DNA from: Alphaproteobacteria bacterium bin52
Lineage (GTDB): Bacteria > Pseudomonadota > Alphaproteobacteria > Thalassobaculales > Thalassobaculaceae
NCBI GenBank assembly: GCA_002238645.1
Contig: MPMT01000008.1
Coordinates: forward strand, 1 to 64,000
Length of the DNA: 64,000 nt
Reading direction: 5' to 3'
Part shown: piece after piece, positions 1,440 to 25,645 of the stretch
How positions within the stretch are numbered: position 1 is the stretch's first letter
How the letters are laid out: the number at the start of each line of letters is the position of its first letter
Position numbers and translations under genes: made by a program
Notes under the pieces: generated by a model
What the model was told of the DNA's origin: nothing
The model's input: the letters and a program-made list of their open reading frames with translations, nothing else
Databases searched by the model: none

Positions 1440-2432
1440 TTACTGCCCAACTCTTTCGTTCAACCTGCGGCAGATGGCCTTGCGTTCTTCGAGCGTGCGT
1501 GCGATGTCCATTCTCCGCACGCGAGCGCGTTGATTGATCAACGCATCCTTGAGCACCTCATCGGCGGCACGCGTGACCTCGGCATAGCTCAGTCCAAGCC
1601 CAGCCTCGCCCAGCCCCGCCCAGCGAGTGGCCTTCGCTGTGCAGTTCGCAAGTCGCATCTTCAGGAGCCTGGCGACTTGCGATTGATCGGGAAGTTCGTA
1701 GTGAAGCACGTCATCGAAACGCCTGAACAGTGCGGGATCCAGGAGATCGGGATGGTTGGTTGCGGCCATGACAATACTATGGGATCGATCCTGTTCGATC
1801 ATCAGCAGAAAACTGTTCAACACCCTGCGAATTTCGCCCACGTCGTTGGCGAGACCTCGTTGCGAGCCAACCGCGTCAAATTCGTCGAAAAAATATACGC
1901 CACGTGTTCGACCAATGGCATCGAATACCTGCCGCAGCTTGGCCGCGGTCTCACCCATGAACTTGGTAATGAGACCGTCAAGTCGAACCTGGAGAAGCGG
2001 CAGGCCAAGTTCACCTGCGAGCACGGATGCGGTCATCGTCTTGCCCGTACCTGAGGGCCCCAGCAAGAGCAGCTTGCGCCTCGGTGCAAGACCGTGCTCC
2101 AGAATTCGACCAGCATGTCGCTGTTCCCGGATGACACGCCGGATCTGATCGGACAGCTCTTTCCCCAGAATCATGTCTCCCAAGCGGGCCGTGGGGTAGG
2201 AATCCTCCAGCAGCATCGCCAACTCACCGCGAGGTCGACCGATTGGCACGGGAGAATCCAGGCCGCGCCGGCTCTTGGCATCGTCGATCATGGCACGCAA
2301 CTCTTCAGCGAGTTTGCCGTGACCGTGCCTTGCCTCGTGGGCAGCCACTTGCATTGCGACTGAGAAAAAACGGTCGTCATCACCTTCCATGTGCGCTTTC
2401 AGCAGTGCCTTGAGGTGTGCGGCGCTAGCCAC
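1440..2432 (-). CDS. ietA: IetA-like AAA+ ATPase
   Basis: A 330-residue single-domain AAA+ ATPase. Walker A is GPSGTGKT (residues 125-132), Walker B is FFDEFDAVG (181-189), and the sensor/arginine-finger region is ATNHPDLLDPALFRRFD (224-240). The roughly 120 residues before Walker A are helical and probably a substrate or partner adaptor. The start is GTG at 2432, because the nearby ATG at 2440 is out of frame. The gene begins 30 bases after the Mod stop and is followed 18 bases later by the S8 protease gene. In known ietAS pairs the ATPase is thought to control the protease, and the same is inferred here. With the protease broken, this gene may be an orphan. Confidence 0.85.
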   Translation of the reverse strand: MASAAHLKALLKAHMEGDDDRFFSVAMQVAAHEARHGHGKLAEELRAMIDDAKSRRGLDSPVPIGRPRGELAMLLEDSYPTARLGDMILGKELSDQIRRVIREQRHAGRILEHGLAPRRKLLLLGPSGTGKTMTASVLAGELGLPLLQVRLDGLITKFMGETAAKLRQVFDAIGRTRGVYFFDEFDAVGSQRGLANDVGEIRRVLNSFLLMIEQDRSHSIVMAATNHPDLLDPALFRRFDDVLHYELPDQSQVARLLKMRLANCTAKATRWAGLGEAGLGLSYAEVTRAADEVLKDALINQRARVRRMDIARTLEERKAICRRLNERVGQ

Positions 2433-2462: not shown

Positions 2463-5255
2463 TCATACCCTGAACACCTTCATCGCCTCGTCGCCGAGGT
2501 GATTGATGACCTTGACGGCGATGCGGCCGGAGGCGGGCCTGGGGAAGGGGCGGGAGGTGTCGCTGTGCAGCGTGGCCCAGGCGTCGGGGTCAATCTCGGC
2601 CTTCAGCGTGGTCTTCAGCGCCTTGTAGGGGTCGTTCGCACCCAGGAAGTAGGCGTGGCGGACGAAGAAACTCTCCTCGTTGTAGTCGGTGTCGACGAAC
2701 CAGCAGGCGATGCCGTCGGCGTCGGCGCTCCGCACCTCGCCGGTGTTGGGGTGGAAGATGTCGACGCCGTTGATCCTTACCCGAATGGTGTCGTCGCTTG
2801 CCGCCAGGATGTCGATGTCGGGCTCGCCGAAGATGACGAAGAGGTTGCCCTTGCCGGTGTTCTTGAGGTCGCCGGCCATGTGCAGGTCGGCATTCATGCG
2901 CGCCTTGAGCACCGGGATGCGCCCGAGCTTCTCGAACTCGGTTGCGTGGGCGTCGTAGCTGAAGGCGCAGGCGATCAGCACATCGAAGCCGGCGTCGGCG
3001 GCCTCGCGCGCGGCGGCCACCAAGTCGGGCCGCACGACGGTGCCGAACTCGGGCCCGATGAAGACGCCGGCCCGGCGCGTGGCGCCTTCTTCGCCGCCGC
3101 CCTCCACATAGCGCCCCTCGGCGCAGACATAGTGGCCGGGCCAGGGCGTGAGCGCGGTGAAGGTAATGCGGTCCTCCTTGTGCGCCTGCTGCACACCCGC
3201 CGTCCTGAGGTTCTCCAGGATCATCTCGGTGAAGTTCGGCGCCTCGCCATAGCCGAGCTTCTGGTCGGCGAGGGCGGAGAAGAGCTCGTCGTTCTCGTCC
3301 ACCGCCAGCATCCGGTGCGGCGCAAGGCTCTCCACCGTGAAGGGGCCGGCGACGCGGATGCGTGTGTTGTCGGCATAGGGCTTGTCGAAGAGATACTCGT
3401 GGTCGGCCTTGGCGGCGATGGAGGCGTCGATCTCCCTCTGCCGGGCGATGCGCGCCTCCCACCACTCGGCGTGCGTGGCCGTGGCATCGCCGGGCCAATC
3501 CTCACCCGGCTCGCGTGGGATTTCCCACTCCTCCCATTGCTGGCCGAGGGCGGCGTTGAGCCGGGCGCGGAGGGGCTCCAGGGTCTCCTGCCAAAGCTCC
3601 CAGACCACGTCGATCTCGGCATTGTTGGCGATGGATTTCAGGGTGATGTGCGGTACGCGCTCGTAGACGAAGCCCTGGCGGATGTCGCCGCCGGTCGGCG
3701 TCTCCGTAGGCGCGCGCTGCGTGATCTCGGCTTCCTTCTTCTGCCCGTCGGGGCTGTCGGCAAGCAGGTACCAAGGATAGCGCGCGCCCATGATGCGTGC
3801 CCGCGCCAGTGCGAGCGCCACGCGGGAGGTGTCGATGGTGATCCAGCGCCGGCCCCACTGCTCGGCAACAAAGGCGGTGGTGCCGGAGCCGCAGGTCGGG
3901 TCCAGCACAAGATCGCCGGGGTCGGTTGTCATCAGGACACAGCGTTGAATTACTCGTTCGTTGGTCTGAACGACATAAATTGCACCACTCGCTCCACCTA
4001 CATCTGTCCAAGACGACCCAAGTGGAATAACTGTTGAGTCTCCGAAGAATCGCTTAAGGTGGACTTGGTTTCCTTGCGTGAGCAGTCGTCCAGCCTTTCC
4101 GACCCGTTGAAGTCCCTCGACCACAACGCCCCAATGACGGCCTCTTCCCGGATGAAATGTCTTGCCGTTCAAGCTAAACTGAACAGTTGTCGTTTCTCGG
4201 AAACCATCAGACGTCAACGGGTACGAGCGCCAAATGAAATTTGGAGATATATCCTTAGATTTCACTTTGTTTCTTACTTCCTCTACCGGAATATCAACAC
4301 CGATATCTGCTTGATAATTTGTGTATCCATGCCCTCCCTTTCCATGGATTTCTCTTTCAAGAAAAAGAGAGCGGTATTTCATATTATCCGATCGACTGTA
4401 CCATAGCACATGATCGAAATTAGACTGAAGATGCTTGCCAGTTTGACTTCCCGTCTTTTGAACCGCAATGTTAACAACAAAATTATCCTCCCCAAACACC
4501 TCGTCCATGAGCGCCCGCACACGGTGCACATTCTCGTCGCCGATCTGGACGAAGACCGAGCCACTCTCGGTCAACAGGTCATGCGCCACGGTCAGCCTGT
4601 CTCGCAGATAGCTCAGGTACGAGTGGATACCGTCGCGCCAGGTGTCGCGGAAGGCTTTCACCTGCTCGGGCTCACGAGTGATGTGGGCAGCGTTGCCGTC
4701 CTTCACGTCGCGGCTTCTTGTAGACCACTGGAAGTTGGAGTTGAAGCGGATGCCGTAGGGCGGGTCGATGTAGATGCACTGCACCTTGCCGCGCAGTCCT
4801 TCGCGCTCCGCCAGCGAGGCCATGACCTGCAGGCTGTCGCCAAGGATCATGCGGTTCGACCAATTGGCGTCGTGACGGTAAAACTCGGTGCGCGCGGCGT
4901 CGTCTGGCAGGCCGTTGAAATCGGCGAAGAGGTTGGGCGTGGTGTGTGCCTCCTCCTCCCGCCGTTTCCTGGTCTGACGCTGCAGGTCGTCGATCAGGAC
5001 CTTGGGGTGCACCTTCTCCTGGATGTAGAGCGGCGGTGCCTGGACGACGAGGTCGGCCATGTCCTGCTCGTCCTTGCCGCGCCAGACGAGTTGCGGGTCG
5101 AGGTCGCGGTTGCGGCGCTCGTAGGCCACGCGGATCGGTGCCTTGTCCTTCTCCGCCATGATGGGGTGATATTCCGCGGTTGGGATGTTGCGCCTCGCCG
5201 CCTCGCCATGCGTGAGCGTCTCGACGGACTTGGTTTTCTTCTTGCGGCGTGCCAC
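2463..5255 (-). CDS. mod: Type III-like site-specific DNA N6-adenine methyltransferase (Mod)
   Basis: A 930-residue beta-group amino-methyltransferase. The catalytic DPPY motif (164-167) precedes the SAM-binding DPTCGSGTT motif (452-460), the order usual in type III Mod subunits, and DPPY indicates adenine as target. The interval between them (about 255-440) should be the target recognition domain and is visibly AT-richer than the rest. The C-terminal 400 residues are a long extension seen in large Mod-like proteins. The start is GTG at 5255, four bases after the DUF2283 stop. Together with Res, two genes upstream on the same strand, it should form a restriction-modification complex that needs Mod for recognition. 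The gene looks intact. Confidence 0.9.
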   Translation of the reverse strand: MARRKKKTKSVETLTHGEAARRNIPTAEYHPIMAEKDKAPIRVAYERRNRDLDPQLVWRGKDEQDMADLVVQAPPLYIQEKVHPKVLIDDLQRQTRKRREEEAHTTPNLFADFNGLPDDAARTEFYRHDANWSNRMILGDSLQVMASLAEREGLRGKVQCIYIDPPYGIRFNSNFQWSTRSRDVKDGNAAHITREPEQVKAFRDTWRDGIHSYLSYLRDRLTVAHDLLTESGSVFVQIGDENVHRVRALMDEVFGEDNFVVNIAVQKTGSQTGKHLQSNFDHVLWYSRSDNMKYRSLFLEREIHGKGGHGYTNYQADIGVDIPVEEVRNKVKSKDISPNFIWRSYPLTSDGFRETTTVQFSLNGKTFHPGRGRHWGVVVEGLQRVGKAGRLLTQGNQVHLKRFFGDSTVIPLGSSWTDVGGASGAIYVVQTNERVIQRCVLMTTDPGDLVLDPTCGSGTTAFVAEQWGRRWITIDTSRVALALARARIMGARYPWYLLADSPDGQKKEAEITQRAPTETPTGGDIRQGFVYERVPHITLKSIANNAEIDVVWELWQETLEPLRARLNAALGQQWEEWEIPREPGEDWPGDATATHAEWWEARIARQREIDASIAAKADHEYLFDKPYADNTRIRVAGPFTVESLAPHRMLAVDENDELFSALADQKLGYGEAPNFTEMILENLRTAGVQQAHKEDRITFTALTPWPGHYVCAEGRYVEGGGEEGATRRAGVFIGPEFGTVVRPDLVAAAREAADAGFDVLIACAFSYDAHATEFEKLGRIPVLKARMNADLHMAGDLKNTGKGNLFVIFGEPDIDILAASDDTIRVRINGVDIFHPNTGEVRSADADGIACWFVDTDYNEESFFVRHAYFLGANDPYKALKTTLKAEIDPDAWATLHSDTSRPFPRPASGRIAVKVINHLGDEAMKVFRV

Positions 5256-5258
5256 GGG

Positions 5259-5474
5259 TCAGCCGACCCTGGTCGCGCGCAGCGGCAACGCCTCGGTCTC
5301 CAACGTGGACAGATCGAGACGCCGGGACGCATGGTCGATGTCGAAGCCGACCACGTCGCCGGCGGCGTCGAGGTCGACGTTCAGGCCGTCCGAGACCTCA
5401 CGGGTTTCCACGCCCGGCCCCGCCTTGAACTCGACGTAGAGGCTGTCCGTCTCGGGATAGTAGTGGAGTTTCAT
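5259..5474 (-). CDS. DUF2283 family small protein
   Basis: A 71-residue protein beginning MKLHYYPETDSLYVEF, the hallmark opening of DUF2283 proteins, which are short beta-rich proteins of unknown function. Its ATG overlaps the stop of the preceding small gene (AATGA) and its stop is four bases before the Mod start, so it is translated as part of the restriction operon. Such proteins are commonly encoded next to a small partner of the type found just upstream here. A toxin-antitoxin or accessory role has been suspected for such pairs, but I cannot support it from sequence. The gene is intact although its partner is not. Confidence 0.75.
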   Translation of the reverse strand: MKLHYYPETDSLYVEFKAGPGVETREVSDGLNVDLDAAGDVVGFDIDHASRRLDLSTLETEALPLRATRVG

Positions 5475-5720
5475 TTCTCGTCCCTCTTAAGCCCTCGATC
5501 GAAGAAGGCGTTGTGGACCGTCTCTTCATCGGCCAGCGTCACCACACGCAGGATACGCGGCACATCTTCGTCGGCGCGCGACCTCGCCTCAGAAGCGGAC
5601 GCGGCCATCCGGCTGCACGTCACGACGAAGGGGCGCGGCGATGACGGCGGCGCACCACACCGGTTCGATATAAGGTCTCTTGCGTCGTACCTGCTCCTCG
5701 AAATAGCGCGTCGTCTTCAT
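5471..5720 (-). pseudogene. Small partner gene of DUF2283, broken by an in-frame stop and a frameshift
   Basis: The ATG at 5718-5720 overlaps the Res stop (ATGA). The first frame gives MKTTRYFEEQVRRKRPYIEP and continues to DGRVRF, then meets TGA. Past the stop, a shifted frame resumes recognisable sequence, DEDVPRILRVVTLADEET then VHNAFFDRG, and ends in TGA overlapping the DUF2283 start. As I recall them, intact relatives have a Trp where this TGA stands, so a TGG-to-TGA change plus a small indel explain the break. The intact family is a roughly 80-residue protein, often annotated as hypothetical or DUF4258-like, encoded directly before DUF2283. Function unknown. Confidence 0.65.
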
Positions 5721-8700
5721 GCGGCAGCATCTTCGAGAAGGAAGCCGCGGACAAGCTCGTCAAACCCGGCCTCGATCTCGTAGACGTCCGTGAACTCCGC
5801 GAAGGCCCAGCGGCCGAACGTGCCGAGCGCGTTCACGCCCGGCACCCAGTAGCTCTCCATCGTCCCCTTCTTGTCCTTGGCGTCCTCCCCCTGGTAGCCC
5901 TTGATCTCGACGATCAGGTGCAGCGGGTCGTCCTCGCCCCGCCCGTCGTCCAGAGCCACGATGAAATCTGGGACGTAGGTGCGCGCCTTGTCGCCGAGGC
6001 GGTACGGCACCTCCAGGCCAAGCCCGTAGTTCTTCGCGTATGCGCGGACGCGGGGATGCCCTTCGGCGACGCGGCAAAACTCGGCCTCCCAGTCGCTGTC
6101 GCAGACGACATGGTTGACATGGCAGCGGCGGGAAGAGGTTGTCCACAGCGTCTGCTTCGACGTGGTAAAGCGGACGTGGATTGTCGAGCCGGCAGGGTTG
6201 TATGGGTCGAGCACGGCCTTGACCGGGCGTTCGTCCAGGTGACGCTCGACGATGCCTCGCGTGATGCGCTCGCAGGCCATGTCCGCAAGCGTCAGATACA
6301 TGAGCTGCGCCGGGTACGTGCCGCCCTTGCAGACGAGGTGATTGTCGAGCCACTGGCGCGCGACGCGCTTGAGTTGACCGAACAGGTGCAGCTTCGGCTC
6401 TTCTCCTGGATCGCGCCACTTCGTCTCCAGCAGGCGCTTCGTGAGGTGAAACATAAGGGTCGAGCGCCGCAGGTCGCGGGTATGCACCAGGTTCAGATCA
6501 ACTCCCTCGCCGATGATGCCCTCGATGCGGGTAACGGAGGGGCCGACGAGGTTTGGCGTCAGCACCAGGGTCGAATCGTCATCGAAGGTCGCCTCCAGAC
6601 GCTCTTCTGGCAGCTCGACGCGGTAGCCTTGGACGCGGGGAAAACGGATTTCGCAACGGTCGCGCCCCGGGGTGATTGCCTTGACCTGCACCGTCTTGCG
6701 TGGCTTCTGCGGCGGTGCGACCACGGGCTTCGCCGTGAAGTCGAAGGGGATGCCGAGCACATCGGCATACTCGACAGGGAAGATGCCGTCCTCATTCAAT
6801 TCATACGATTGCCTGCGTAGTGAGCGGCCCACTGCTTGCTCACACAGGAGCTGCGTACCAAACGCGCGTACGCCCAGGACGTGGGTGACGGTGTTGGCAT
6901 CCCATCCTTCGGTCAGCATGGACACCGATACCACGCATCGGGTTTCGCCACCCAGTCGACCTTCCTTGCCGACGGTGTTCATCGCCTCGCGCAGCAGGTC
7001 CTGGTCTGACAGGTTTTCGGCGCGTTTCCGATCGCCGGTGCGTTCAACTATTTCGCGACGGAAGCGTTCGATTTCGTCGGCTGCCATCGTTCGGAAATTT
7101 CGGTCGAGTGCTTCTCCCGACTCAAGCTGCTGGCTATCGATGAGCAGGGTACGCGGGCGTGCGATTGCGTTGCCATGCTCGTCATAGTTTCGAAACAGCG
7201 CGAGGCGCCCGTTTTCGAGCGTAGTGGATCCGTCCGGGTTCTCCCGCTCGAATCCCGAGATGTAGTCGTAAATCAATTTCGAGGTGGAGGTGTTGTTGCA
7301 GATCACGATGAAGCACGGTGGCACTTCAATACCGGCCTCGTTCCAGAGCGCGAAGGTCTTCTCATAGTGTCCGTACAAGGCTTCCAACGCGGTTTGCAGG
7401 GTCACAGGGATCAGCAGTGGACTGAGTGAGCTTGAGTTTTTGCCGCGTCCCCTTTTTGGCATGTCCTTGCCGATATGCGCCCACAGGTTGCGGAACGTCG
7501 GCAAAGTGCCGCCGGGAACATTGTCGGCAACTGGGACTCGAGGCAACTTCACGATGCCGCATTCGATGGCGTCCATGAGAGAAAAGTCGCTCATGGTCCA
7601 TGGAAAGAGCGTTCCTTCGGCGTAGCCAGAGCCCCGCAGGAAGAACGGTGTCGCCGAGAGATCAACCACGCGAGCGAGTCCGAGCTTGCGCCCGACGGCC
7701 TCCAGCCCCGATATCCAGAGCCTTGCAGCCTCGCGGTTCTTCTCGGCCTCCTTGCGGTCGTCTCCCGTCAGTTTGCCCTCGTCGTCCTTTCCCGGGTTTT
7801 CCCGGTAGCAGTGGTGTGCCTCGTCGTTCAGGACCACCACGTTCCTCATGCCCATCAGCTCTGGCATGACGCGCTTGAGCATCTGGCCTTCTGTTTCCAG
7901 CGAACGGAGGCGGGGACCGCGCCCTTGAAGAAGCGCTCGTCCCCCCTTGGAAACCTCCATCGTCTCACGAAGTTTGAAGGCGTGAAAGTTTGTGATGACG
8001 ACCTTGGCGCGCTCAAGTTGTCCTAGCATTTCGCCAGGCACCAAGTCCTGGCTCCGGTAGTAGTTGTCCGGGTCATTGGGCTGGAGGACACGGAGCCGTT
8101 CCTTGATCGTGATCCCCGGGGTAACGACCAGAAAGCCTCGGGTGAACCGTCGGCTGTTGGGCCGGCGAACCGAATTGATCGTCTGCCAGGCGATGAGCAT
8201 GGCCATGACGGTGGTCTTGCCGGCTCCCGTGGCAAGCTTTAGTGCAAGTCGGACAAGTCCGGGATTTGCATCCTTGTTCGCTTTGTCGAGCTGCTCAAGG
8301 AAGCGCCGTCCCGTGTTGCCGAGACCAGGAGCAACCTCGGTCAGCCAGATGACCGTCTCCACAGCCTCCACCTGACAGAAGAACGGCCGAAACCCATCGG
8401 GCCGGTCGTGACGCCAGTGGCGAAGCAGCCTGGCCGTTTCTGGTGTGACTCGCCACTGTTTCGGGTCTTCCAGAACGCGCCAGTCATCGACCTGGTTGCG
8501 CACCTCGCTTATGGTTCGAGCGAGCTCATACTGTTGACCATCTGTTGCACCCCGCGGTGCCTGCTCATCAAGGAGCAGCGAGCCCTGTGAGCCTTTGCTC
8601 TTCTTCGAGGCGGGGATCGGCGTGATGAATGCAACATGGCGACGGCGGTTTACAATCCGATTGGTTGGTTGCCCGCTGGCATCGAGCTCCCAGTGCTGTG

Positions 8701-8761
8701 CCGGACGGTCATAGGGGGAGTTGAGGATCGGGCGATCGAAAAACCGAGTGACTGCTTCCAT
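5717..8761 (-). CDS. res: Type III-like restriction endonuclease helicase subunit (Res)
   Basis: A 1014-residue SF2 helicase-nuclease. Walker A is ATGAGKTT (177-184), the DEAH-like box is NDEAHH (312-317), motif III is SATPF (369-373), and SMLTEGWDANTVTHVLG with EQAVGRSLRR forms the C-terminal helicase motifs. A C-terminal PD-(D/E)XK nuclease follows (PDFIVALDD at 931, then VEIKGYQ with Glu952 and Lys954). It should translocate on DNA and cut only with the Mod subunit encoded downstream. It is the first gene of a minus-strand operon, and its stop overlaps the next start. All catalytic motifs are present, so restriction could be active. Confidence 0.9.
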   Translation of the reverse strand: MEAVTRFFDRPILNSPYDRPAQHWELDASGQPTNRIVNRRRHVAFITPIPASKKSKGSQGSLLLDEQAPRGATDGQQYELARTISEVRNQVDDWRVLEDPKQWRVTPETARLLRHWRHDRPDGFRPFFCQVEAVETVIWLTEVAPGLGNTGRRFLEQLDKANKDANPGLVRLALKLATGAGKTTVMAMLIAWQTINSVRRPNSRRFTRGFLVVTPGITIKERLRVLQPNDPDNYYRSQDLVPGEMLGQLERAKVVITNFHAFKLRETMEVSKGGRALLQGRGPRLRSLETEGQMLKRVMPELMGMRNVVVLNDEAHHCYRENPGKDDEGKLTGDDRKEAEKNREAARLWISGLEAVGRKLGLARVVDLSATPFFLRGSGYAEGTLFPWTMSDFSLMDAIECGIVKLPRVPVADNVPGGTLPTFRNLWAHIGKDMPKRGRGKNSSSLSPLLIPVTLQTALEALYGHYEKTFALWNEAGIEVPPCFIVICNNTSTSKLIYDYISGFERENPDGSTTLENGRLALFRNYDEHGNAIARPRTLLIDSQQLESGEALDRNFRTMAADEIERFRREIVERTGDRKRAENLSDQDLLREAMNTVGKEGRLGGETRCVVSVSMLTEGWDANTVTHVLGVRAFGTQLLCEQAVGRSLRRQSYELNEDGIFPVEYADVLGIPFDFTAKPVVAPPQKPRKTVQVKAITPGRDRCEIRFPRVQGYRVELPEERLEATFDDDSTLVLTPNLVGPSVTRIEGIIGEGVDLNLVHTRDLRRSTLMFHLTKRLLETKWRDPGEEPKLHLFGQLKRVARQWLDNHLVCKGGTYPAQLMYLTLADMACERITRGIVERHLDERPVKAVLDPYNPAGSTIHVRFTTSKQTLWTTSSRRCHVNHVVCDSDWEAEFCRVAEGHPRVRAYAKNYGLGLEVPYRLGDKARTYVPDFIVALDDGRGEDDPLHLIVEIKGYQGEDAKDKKGTMESYWVPGVNALGTFGRWAFAEFTDVYEIEAGFDELVRGFLLEDAAA

Positions 8762-22323: not shown

Positions 22324-24372
22324 ATGACCAATGATGAAATTCTAGAACATTTCAGTTCTGATTCGGAATTTAGGGCAATTTTGGACCATTGGGGTCCGAA
22401 TTCAGATCTGGCGCGACGTTTCTGCAGGTTGGCCCGCGCCGTTCACAATGTCGGTCTGGATTGGTACCACGTGCAAGCGATGAGGAAGGCCCGATTCGGG
22501 CGCAAGAATCATGATAACCAAAATGCTCAATCCGTAGCGGGATACATTTCTGTGAGTGATAATAGTGTTCATATTAAGTCAAATGACACTTGGCAAGGAA
22601 CGGCAATCGAATCGATTCCATCAGATTATTATACGGTTCTTGATAACGCGCGGGTGCAAGAAATTGAAATTGAGCTAACAACAGAGTGGGACGGTATCCC
22701 ACATGATTTGAGAAGGGATAGTTCGAACGGGCCGCCAGGCGGACTGTGGCCCGATGAATATTTGGACTGTGAATCTGAATCCGGTCAGGATAATGACGCT
22801 CGTTCTGTTGAGGCCTCTCCTCACCATTCTCTCAACACGATTCTCTACGGTCCACCAGGTGCCGGTAAGACCTATGCCACGTTTCGACGTTGTGTGGAGA
22901 TTTGTGATGGAAAAAAATCGCTGAAAGACGAGGATGTTGGCGATCGCTATCGTAAACTCGTTAAAGAAGGTCGTGTCGAATTCGTCACGTTTCATCAGTC
23001 GTACGGTTATGAGGAGTTCGTCGAGGGATTGCGGCCTCAAACCGATACGCTCGACACAGAGGACCGTAGCAGTGCAGGTTTCCGTCTCCATGCAGAAGAC
23101 GGGGTGCTCAAACGCATTGCGGAGCGTGCTCGAAAAGTTCCCGCTCGGTCCGCAACGCCCTTTACCCTTGATCACCGGAGAGTATTCAAAATGGGTTTGG
23201 GAAACCCGACTGCAGCGAGCGAGCAAGGAATTTTTCAAGAGTGCGTTGACAACGGATGCGTCCTGCTTGGTTGGGGAGGTAATGTAGATTGGTCGGATCC
23301 AACCTTTGGTCAATACAACAATATATTGGAGCGATGGAAAATAGAAGACGACAGGGCGACTGGCTATGATTCAAATGTTAAGTTTATTCACTGTTTTCGC
23401 AACACCCTGACAAAAAATGACTTAATTGTTGTTCCAACCTCTCAACAAAGATTCCGGGCGGTGGGTGAAGTTACTGGAGCCTATGAGTTCAGTCAAAGAG
23501 ACGATGGTATTTATCCCCACAGGCGCAACGTACACTGGCTTTGGGTTGACACAGAGGGAACGCCGTTCTTGGAGATATATGATTTCCAAATAACGCCACA
23601 AACTATCTACCAGCTTAGCTCACAAAATCTAAAAAAAGATCGACTGATCCGCTATGCCAGCCGAACTGAAGAGTCCGTAAGCGTCCAACCTCACGTTCTG
23701 GTCATCGATGAAATAAATCGTGGCAATATTTCCAAGGTATTCGGTGAAGCAATTACTCTTGTTGAAGAGGACAAACGGGCGGGAAGTCCCAACGAAATTT
23801 CTGTAACCTTGCCGTATTCCGGCAAGTCCTTCAGCCTTCCGCCGAATCTTTACATCCTTGGCACGATGAACACGGCCGACCGGTCAATCGCGCTGCTCGA
23901 CACGGCGCTGCGCCGACGCTTCGATTTCGAGGAACTTGCGCCTAAACCCGAATTGCTTGAGGAAGCAGCGCGTGCGTGCAAAATCGACTTGCCCGCTGTG
24001 CTCAAAGCCATGAACGAGCGGTTGGAATGGCTGTTGAGCCGCGATCATCTGATCGGTCATGCCTGGCTGATCGCCGCACGTAGCAAGGAAGATGTTGACC
24101 GTATCATGCGGCGAAAAATCATTCCCATGCTTGCCGAGTATTTCCACGAAGACTGGAGCAGGGTCCGCGCCGTGCTTGGCGGAGGCAACGAGTTCATCGA
24201 AATGGAAAAGCTCGGCGCTCCGCCAGCAATGGACAACGCGGACATTGGCGAGGACCGGTATCGCTGGACAATTCGCGAGAACTTTTGGAAAGACGCGTAC
24301 CACCGTCTGATTACCGGCAAGCCCCGGCAGGCCGATTCAAGTGACGACGGCTCAGAAGTCGATAGCGCCTGA
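22324..24372 (+). CDS. mcrB: McrB-type AAA+ GTPase with an inserted EVE-like reader domain
   Basis: A 682-residue McrB subunit of a modification-dependent restriction system. The N-terminal 165 residues are unrecognised and may contribute to DNA recognition. Walker A is GPPGAGKT (176-183), followed by the McrB-type VTFHQSYGYEEFVEG (221-235). Residues about 283-446 are inserted before Walker B and resemble an EVE/PUA-like modified-base reader (LGWGGNVDWSD, FIHCFRNTLTKNDLIVVP, VGEVTGAYEF). Walker B is VLVIDEINRGN (458-468), and the McrB motor signature is MNTADRSIALLDTALRRRF (515-533). The start has GGGAG eight bases upstream. The first two thirds are AT-rich and the end GC-rich. It overlaps mcrC by 32 bases. 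Confidence 0.88.
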   Translation: MTNDEILEHFSSDSEFRAILDHWGPNSDLARRFCRLARAVHNVGLDWYHVQAMRKARFGRKNHDNQNAQSVAGYISVSDNSVHIKSNDTWQGTAIESIPSDYYTVLDNARVQEIEIELTTEWDGIPHDLRRDSSNGPPGGLWPDEYLDCESESGQDNDARSVEASPHHSLNTILYGPPGAGKTYATFRRCVEICDGKKSLKDEDVGDRYRKLVKEGRVEFVTFHQSYGYEEFVEGLRPQTDTLDTEDRSSAGFRLHAEDGVLKRIAERARKVPARSATPFTLDHRRVFKMGLGNPTAASEQGIFQECVDNGCVLLGWGGNVDWSDPTFGQYNNILERWKIEDDRATGYDSNVKFIHCFRNTLTKNDLIVVPTSQQRFRAVGEVTGAYEFSQRDDGIYPHRRNVHWLWVDTEGTPFLEIYDFQITPQTIYQLSSQNLKKDRLIRYASRTEESVSVQPHVLVIDEINRGNISKVFGEAITLVEEDKRAGSPNEISVTLPYSGKSFSLPPNLYILGTMNTADRSIALLDTALRRRFDFEELAPKPELLEEAARACKIDLPAVLKAMNERLEWLLSRDHLIGHAWLIAARSKEDVDRIMRRKIIPMLAEYFHEDWSRVRAVLGGGNEFIEMEKLGAPPAMDNADIGEDRYRWTIRENFWKDAYHRLITGKPRQADSSDDGSEVDSA

Positions 24373-25645
24373 GCTCGCCGTGAAGCCCTTGATCTGCCGA
24401 GAATGGCAGGAGCTGCGTATCGGCGAGAGCGGGCTGACCGAAACCGAGGCCCGACGGTTCCATGCGCTGGCCGAACACGTCAGCCATCGGCTGAAGCGGG
24501 GTGAAACTGGCGTCTTGATCCGCACCCGGCGCGGCCTGAAGGCGCAACAGGTCGTGGGCGTCCTCGCCATTCCGGGACGGACCCTCGAAATCCTGCCCAA
24601 GGTCGACGGGGAAGATGACGCGGTGCGTAATGCCCTCATTCGTATGCTCGCCGTAGCGCACGACTTGCGGGTGGCGGATGGCGCGCTTACCGGAATGATG
24701 CGGCAAACGCACGACCTTCTGGAGCTCTTGATCCGCCTGTTTGCGGCCCGATTGCTGGCCGGCGTGCGGCACGGCCTGCCCCGTCGCTATATCGCTTGCG
24801 AGGAGGACCTGAGGCTGTTGCGCGGGCGCCTCGATGTTGTACGCCAGTTCACCCGTCACGCCGTCCGGCCGGACCGCCTTGCCTGCCGGTTCGACGAACT
24901 TTCCGAGGATACGCCCCTGAACCGCGTGCTCAAGGCCGCCGTGTCGCGGCTGGCGCTCATAACGCGTTCTGCCGCAAACGCCCGGCTGCTGGCCGAACTG
25001 GCGGCACGCTTCGAACTTGCCGGTGACTCGTCCCGACCGCTCAAAGAACCCGTCCGGCTCGACCGGACCAACACCGCCTTTCACGACCTGTACCGGCTTG
25101 CCCGGCTGTTTCTCGAAGGTGAGTGGCAGGGCACTGCCGCCGGCCGGCCGGCGGGCTTCGCCCTGCTGTTTCCTATGAACGACCTGTTCGAGGCGTTCGT
25201 CGGTCGCAGCCTGCTACGCGTACCCACACCGAGCCGCGTCCGCCTGCAGGCGCGCAGCAGATATGCGCTGAAGGGCGAAAAAAGCGGAGAACTTCTCTTC
25301 GCGCTGCAGCCGGATGCCGTGATTGAGGCAGACAGCGGATGCGTCGTTCTCGACACCAAATGGAAAGAACTCAAGCAAGAGCGGGACGATTTCGGCGTCG
25401 CGACGAGCGACATCTACCAGATGCTCGCCTACGGTCGCGCCTACAAGGCGGCTCGCGTGATCCTGCTTTACCCTTGGCACAGTGACATCGGCGTCGACAC
25501 GGGTGTCGTCCGCCGATGGACATCGGCAGAGCCGGATACCGACATCATCTTGCGGCTGGACATCGCGACGGTTGATGTCGGTCGCCCCGAGGACGTTCCT
25601 GATGTACTCGCCAAAATCGTGGAAGATGTTTCGGACAGGGGTTGA
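24341..25645 (+). CDS. mcrC: McrC-type PD-(D/E)XK nuclease subunit
   Basis: A 434-residue McrC homologue. The N-terminal half is the McrB-binding part (LKRGETGVLIRTRRGLKAQ, LEILPKVDG). The C-terminal nuclease has the catalytic Pro324-Asp325 (LQPDAVIEA), DTKWK (338-342), and the conserved DIYQMLAY (357-364). McrC supplies the cleavage site and stimulates GTP hydrolysis by the McrB hexamer. It overlaps mcrB by 32 bases in a different frame and is GC-rich like the chromosome. All catalytic residues are present, so the pair should restrict DNA carrying a modified base chosen by the McrB reader domain. Confidence 0.9.
   Translation: MTTAQKSIAPELAVKPLICREWQELRIGESGLTETEARRFHALAEHVSHRLKRGETGVLIRTRRGLKAQQVVGVLAIPGRTLEILPKVDGEDDAVRNALIRMLAVAHDLRVADGALTGMMRQTHDLLELLIRLFAARLLAGVRHGLPRRYIACEEDLRLLRGRLDVVRQFTRHAVRPDRLACRFDELSEDTPLNRVLKAAVSRLALITRSAANARLLAELAARFELAGDSSRPLKEPVRLDRTNTAFHDLYRLARLFLEGEWQGTAAGRPAGFALLFPMNDLFEAFVGRSLLRVPTPSRVRLQARSRYALKGEKSGELLFALQPDAVIEADSGCVVLDTKWKELKQERDDFGVATSDIYQMLAYGRAYKAARVILLYPWHSDIGVDTGVVRRWTSAEPDTDIILRLDIATVDVGRPEDVPDVLAKIVEDVSDRG

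Follow-up and report, generated by a model that had tools for sequence, protein, structure and literature searches.

Why should a methyltransferase gene that is otherwise GC-rich turn AT-rich over a single stretch in its middle, and does that stretch record the replacement of the part of the enzyme that selects its target? The question was raised by the mod gene at 2463..5255 (minus strand) of a 64,000-nucleotide stretch of alphaproteobacterial DNA (the window), for which a preliminary description had proposed a specificity swap by recombination. The gene is an intact ORF of 930 codons with a GTG start, and its assignment as the modification subunit of a type III system, a beta-class amino DNA methyltransferase, was supported by matches to Pfam PF01555 (E 2.1e-32) and to the PADLOC model MTase_III PDLC03632 (1345.8 bits). 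Both motifs that the preliminary description had used as landmarks were located in the Mod sequence: catalytic motif IV, DPPY, occupies residues 164-167 (4755..4766, minus strand) and the SAM-binding motif I, DPTCGSGTT, residues 452-460 (3876..3902, minus strand), with its GSGT at residue 456. The order of motif IV, then the target recognition domain (TRD), then motif I is that of the beta class, and when fold matches were sought with an AlphaFold model (moderate confidence, pLDDT 70) EcoP15I Mod came first, with the type III Mod 6k0w and CcrM also among the leading ones.

The partner gene, res (5717..8761, minus strand), encodes a restriction subunit of 1014 aa that matched NCBIfam NF046055, the BPTD_3080 restriction endonuclease family, over its whole length (1315 bits, cut-off 800), and it is an ordinary member of that family with no notable difference. 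Res has a Walker A motif (GAGKTT), a DEAH motif and, in its C-terminal part, a PD...EIK motif; it matched ResIII (PF04851), and its score to RE_endonuc (PF19778) of 21.2 bits was just below the cut-off of 23.4. With an SF2 helicase and a PD-(D/E)XK nuclease encoded adjoining mod, the pair has the predicted make-up of a type III restriction-modification system, a class whose enzymes use ATP to cleave between asymmetric sites in inverse orientation and methylate one strand. On its other side mod is followed by a gene for an AAA+ ATPase of the IetA type (1440..2432, minus strand; PADLOC IetA, 235 bits) and by one for an IetS-like S8 (subtilase) peptidase, which runs off the end of the window and contig (3..1421, minus strand; PF00082, E 1.2e-14). 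The same res-mod-IetA-IetS order was seen in L181, the locus of the nearest flank relative, whose synteny supports both assignments and which indicates that an IetAS-type defence pair travels with the type III system.

The AT-rich, codon-deviant stretch that had been claimed between the DPPY and SAM motifs proved to be real when measured against mod's own flanks and the whole window. Codon-level segmentation placed the lowest-GC3 segment of the gene at residues 257-439 (GC3 of 0.383, versus 0.894 outside) and its lowest-GC segment at residues 254-443 (0.453 inside, 0.664 outside), and not one of 300 codon permutations reached the observed drop in GC or GC3. The interval originally singled out, 3965-4495 or residues 254-430, has a GC content of 0.452, some 4 sd below the value for 531-nt windows taken along the whole 64 kb (0.660, sd 0.049); its left edge was exact, and its right edge lay approximately 9-13 codons short. 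The shift is mostly synonymous: the FYMINK residues make up 24.6% of the segment versus 20.2% of the C flank, while GC3 falls by approximately 0.5.

Residues 257-439 (3939..4487, minus strand) are, on the grounds of this segmentation and of the identity break and incongruent trees described below, a predicted exchangeable specificity cassette. The suggestion that the AT-rich interval is the target recognition region was borne out by the fold match and by a profile alignment to EcoP15I (PDB 4zcf), in which the limits of the structural TRD, EcoP15I residues 263 and 384 (PMC4490356), align to residues 300 and 408 of the window Mod, so that the equivalent of the EcoP15I TRD occupies roughly residues 300-408 (4032..4358, minus strand). 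As the block extends over 257-439, the unit that appears to have been exchanged is larger than the structural TRD. It also spans the segment around the equivalents of EcoP15I Asn232 and Asn233, which contact the unpaired thymine, and it extends to just before motif I, where Asn416 and Lys418 of EcoP15I motif X contact the target adenine. The cassette is bounded by two anchors: residues 201-256 on the left (4488..4655, minus strand), with a residue conservation of 0.85-0.95 and DNA that is among the most conserved of mod (mean pairwise identity of up to 0.86 at residues 250-253), and residues 440-500 on the right (3756..3938, minus strand), which include motif I and have a conservation of 0.95-0.96 over residues 441-480.

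Comparison with relatives revealed that the cassette and its flanks differ in history. The nearest relative by flanks, L036, comes from a genome of the same class and also shares, in the same order, res (82%), IetA (78-82%) and the S8 peptidase (68%); its Mod is 87% identical to that of the window in the N flank and 84-90% in the C flank, versus 32% in the cassette, with the low-identity block lying at residues 260-433. A second flank relative, the partly sequenced G398 (N flank 85%, C flank 83%), departs from the window Mod from approximately residue 257. High identity on both sides with a break over residues 255-440 was thus found much as had been anticipated, and in neither of these nearest flank relatives was the centre as identical as the flanks. 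The expectation of better matches in other taxa also held: a cassette-only search of 84,980 species genomes produced one close relative, L065, from a metagenome-assembled genome (MAG) of candidate division KSB1, with 72-73% identity over 201 residues, and the next-best match was at 50%. L065 is a 5-kb MAG contig and might be mis-binned. Its flanks group elsewhere than with the window, the partner of its cassette. In the flank tree window and L036 were joined with a support of 100, whereas in the cassette tree window was joined to L065 (support 99) and L036 to L087 of the Chloroflexota (support 100). Approximately unbiased (AU) tests were in agreement, the flanks rejecting window+L065 (p 5.7e-5) and L036+L087 (p 0.003), and the cassette rejecting window+L036 (p 1.4e-6) and L040+L042 (p 1.3e-4). 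Different trees for the recognition domain and for its flanks are one of the marks of a domain swap of this kind.

Exchange is not peculiar to this locus, and its clearest example came from a pair of Tistrella loci (L183 and L184) with 96% DNA identity along stretches of 10.5 kb and 7.8 kb, in which the sole gap in the alignment is the cassette, cleanly replaced, of 440 nt in one genome and 512 nt in the other (8031-8469 in L183, 7815-8325 in L184). The codon-level block in this pair covers residues 253-435, with an identity of 0.33 inside it and 0.98 outside, and fourfold sites are the same at 94-95% in the flanks versus 5 of 16 in the cassette. Breakpoints recurred in several pairs at approximately residues 253-269 and 433-438. 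In five further pairs (L084/L119, L076/L121, L039/L146, L093/L122 and L105/L129) the cassette was not picked out by simple segmentation, owing to interference from N-terminal extensions or other indels. The reciprocal pattern was also found, with cassettes approximately 70% identical in Mods whose flanks are only 38-51% identical (e.g., L071/L085, 71% in the cassette versus 50% and 38% in the flanks) and, more generally, cassettes in common, at 60-93%, to Mods with unrelated flanks. Cassette identity between most family members is only approximately 30%, and at a 55% identity threshold there are 78 cassette clusters. Just outside the cassette, mean DNA identity in the family is 0.65-0.86 over residues 234-253 and 0.71-0.87 over residues 442-473, values that rank with the highest in mod and lie where homologous recombination would require them. 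A search for repeats at the borders of the cassette, which might drive site-specific exchange, found none.

The reading that we hold to be very probable is that the AT-rich stretch is a type III Mod specificity cassette, exchanged as a block through recombination in the conserved DNA of the catalytic domain on either side. The cassette would carry the segment before the TRD, the TRD itself and the motif X region, ending shortly before motif I, and its route of exchange would be homologous recombination within these strongly conserved flanking sequences. As Mod would read the recognition sequence through the cassette both for itself and for its Res partner, a single exchange should shift the specificities of methylation and restriction together and leave the system self-consistent; the recognised sequence would presumably change, with an advantage that may come through altered exclusion of phage or other DNA.

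Where in the history of the locus the exchange occurred is a separate matter, as the recipient of a new cassette may have been either the window lineage or the L036 lineage. The most serious rival to an import into the window lineage, to which we would give somewhat less than an even chance, is that the window cassette is old in its own lineage and that the swap took place in that of L036, the AT bias being something that persists in place and no mark of import. Co-inheritance of the cassette by window and L065 with replacement in L036 would also fit the identities, since window and L065 have diverged to a comparable extent in cassette (72% identical) and flanks (75-87%). Likewise, synonymous sites in the two cassettes are near saturation (27 of 74 fourfold sites the same), and both nonetheless have a GC3 of approximately 0.36, despite unlike values in their flanks (0.86-0.91 and 0.71-0.72); an AT-richness at the same region in 99 of 100 homologues points the same way. 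Set against this are the flanks, which put window with L036 and not with L065 (the AU test above), and this grouping means that a cassette exchange somewhere among the three is needed anyway. With a best donor at 73% and synonymous sites near saturation, the exchange is not demonstrably recent. Donor searches at the order, phylum and viral, plasmid or phage levels found nothing closer than the KSB1 cassette and no near-identical donor.

The composition of the cassette turned out to be a trait of the whole family. Among 100 members from many phyla, fourfold-site GC dropped from 0.80 in the flanks to 0.47 in the cassette, with the cassette the lower in all but one, moderate-GC hosts included, and the GC step falls at the same residues across the family (254-257 and 437-438). 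Because the bias is so general, low GC alone neither proves a recent import nor dates the swap in the window; the recombinational swap that had been proposed for this gene is thus upheld by the identity break and the AU tests, whereas its AT-richness does not by itself serve as a sign that the swap was recent. Other variable parts of Mod, e.g., residues 661-680, had no GC drop, and in 12 GC-rich relatives no drop was found over the TRD of CcrM, a methyltransferase of the same fold that is not exchanged. In 25 of 27 loci from the same class (L151-L177), the TRDs of HsdS had a lower GC than a neighbouring gene, with a mean fourfold GC of 0.56 versus 0.82 in GC-rich hosts. On the basis of these comparisons, low GC appears to mark a class of exchangeable domains.

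Could the low GC instead be an intrinsic need of TRD coding sequence, imposed by amino acids, folding or a function at the level of the DNA, and have no bearing on mobility? We consider this improbable. The constancy of residues and direction in 99 of 100 Mods across phyla and host compositions, and the HsdS result, are what such a need would produce, but the mostly synonymous nature of the shift and the CcrM TRDs without a drop are against it, as are the Caldovatus and Rubritepida cassettes (L112 3275-6160 and L131 823-3726), a counter-example to obligatory AT-richness. These two, from related high-GC hosts, are 94% identical and have a host-like GC3 of 0.92-0.94, which shows that a cassette in residence is able to take on the composition of its host and also tells against the persistence in place invoked for an old window cassette. 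Regressing cassette GC4 on flank GC4 within clusters gave a slope of 0.64 with this pair and 0.24 (p 0.09) without it. Import from AT-rich donors followed by slow amelioration is possible. A more general proposal, which we regard as tentative and rather doubtful, is that a continuing process, and not a one-off import from AT-rich donors, keeps exchangeable recognition domains AT-rich in nearly all hosts, making low GC a general marker of specificity exchange; the pattern cited for it is the drop in 99 of 100 Mods and 25 of 27 HsdS TRDs and in none of the CcrM genes. A possible route would be that allelic TRDs are too unlike to recombine together and so might escape the GC-raising gene conversion of the flanks. 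A literature search found no general account of AT-rich TRDs, itself weak evidence of absence.

Fast point mutation in place under diversifying selection, with no exchange, is very unlikely: TRDs are expected to diversify, and the approximately 30% identity between most cassettes would suit it, but it is contradicted for the family by the sharing of cassettes between unrelated flanks, by the sharp and recurrent boundaries, and by the contrast in fourfold sites, plus the change in length, of the Tistrella pair. Nor can an artefact of assembly or binning be taken as a serious prospect, even for a window from a 120-contig assembly, as a single open frame spans both boundaries and the same architecture is present in many independent assemblies, including a Tistrella mobilis plasmid record (NC_017958.1).

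The exchange of low-GC cassettes is already known from modA of Neisseria, to which the window mod adds one more case. In modA of Neisseria and Haemophilus influenzae, the phasevarion gene, the central DNA recognition domain (DRD) has been replaced en bloc across species while the 5' and 3' parts are conserved, and in modA12 of Neisseria the GC content of the DRD, significantly below that of its flanks, was read as horizontal transfer (PMC3311624). The likeness, i.e., a type III Mod with conserved ends and a block-replaced, low-GC central recognition domain, is accompanied by clear differences. The window Mod belongs to another subfamily, its C-terminal part is much longer and its Res is of the BPTD_3080 type, and the cassettes of its family cross phyla, whereas those of modA move within host-adapted pathogens. 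Unlike modA, the window mod has no phase-variable repeat tract, the one repeat that Tandem Repeats Finder identified in the gene being an 8-mer at 5191-5207 in just 2.1 copies, and phase variation through a frame-shifting simple repeat was rejected. In Helicobacter pylori recognition domains also move between methyltransferase genes and change their specificity (PMC3077401, PMC3983042), but there the type I case includes domains that change position inside a single gene, while in the window family exchange concerns one position, between homologous genes. EcoP15I (PMC4490356) has the beta-class motif order, with the TRD between motifs VIII and X, but low sequence identity to the window Mod and a Mod of 644 aa versus 930.

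What the locus adds is a natural exchange of a predicted specificity cassette whose breakpoints, in this environmental type III system, are confined to a few residues. Such cassettes, exchanged between bacteria, probably alter which DNA the system defends against, and the Tistrella pair, near-identical Mods that differ only in the cassette, lends itself to testing directly whether specificity is transferred. The synonymous AT bias seen throughout the family, together with the CcrM negative control, is a warning against reading a low-GC TRD as proof of recent import, as was done for modA12, and it raises the question of what allows exchanged domains to stay free of their hosts' base composition, even once synonymous sites are saturated.

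Several other features were noted in the course of these analyses. The window has a second low-GC block, of slightly lower GC than the mod segment, at approximately 23.2-23.8 kb inside the mcrB-like gene of an McrBC system (22324-25645, plus strand); the first 494 codons of this gene are AT-rich (GC3 of 0.44 versus 0.69 in the rest) and it adjoins a GC-rich mcrC (PF10117), so this AT-rich block, too, is in the recognition-side part of a restriction gene. A decayed second res-mod locus of the same family is present at the same chromosomal site in two congeneric genomes, that of the window itself (L035 7425-8273, G000:C93) and another of its genus (L034 9368-11151, G001:C52). In these remnants window-like mod sequence stops at approximately residue 263-272, near the cassette border, the rest of mod being gone, and the gap in L034 contains a HepT/DUF86-looking ORF; the broken copies were considered as a source of the cassette and rejected, as neither has a recognisable complete one. 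Lastly, between res and mod (5259-5720, minus strand) there is a DUF2283 gene (5259-5474; PF10049, E 3.5e-15) and a second ORF, without a Pfam match, that we take to be its DUF4258-type partner. The latter is split by a frameshift in the window, whereas the matching stretches are in a single frame in G398 (L186 1533-1079), and the two genes look like a toxin-antitoxin-like pair of which one partner is broken.
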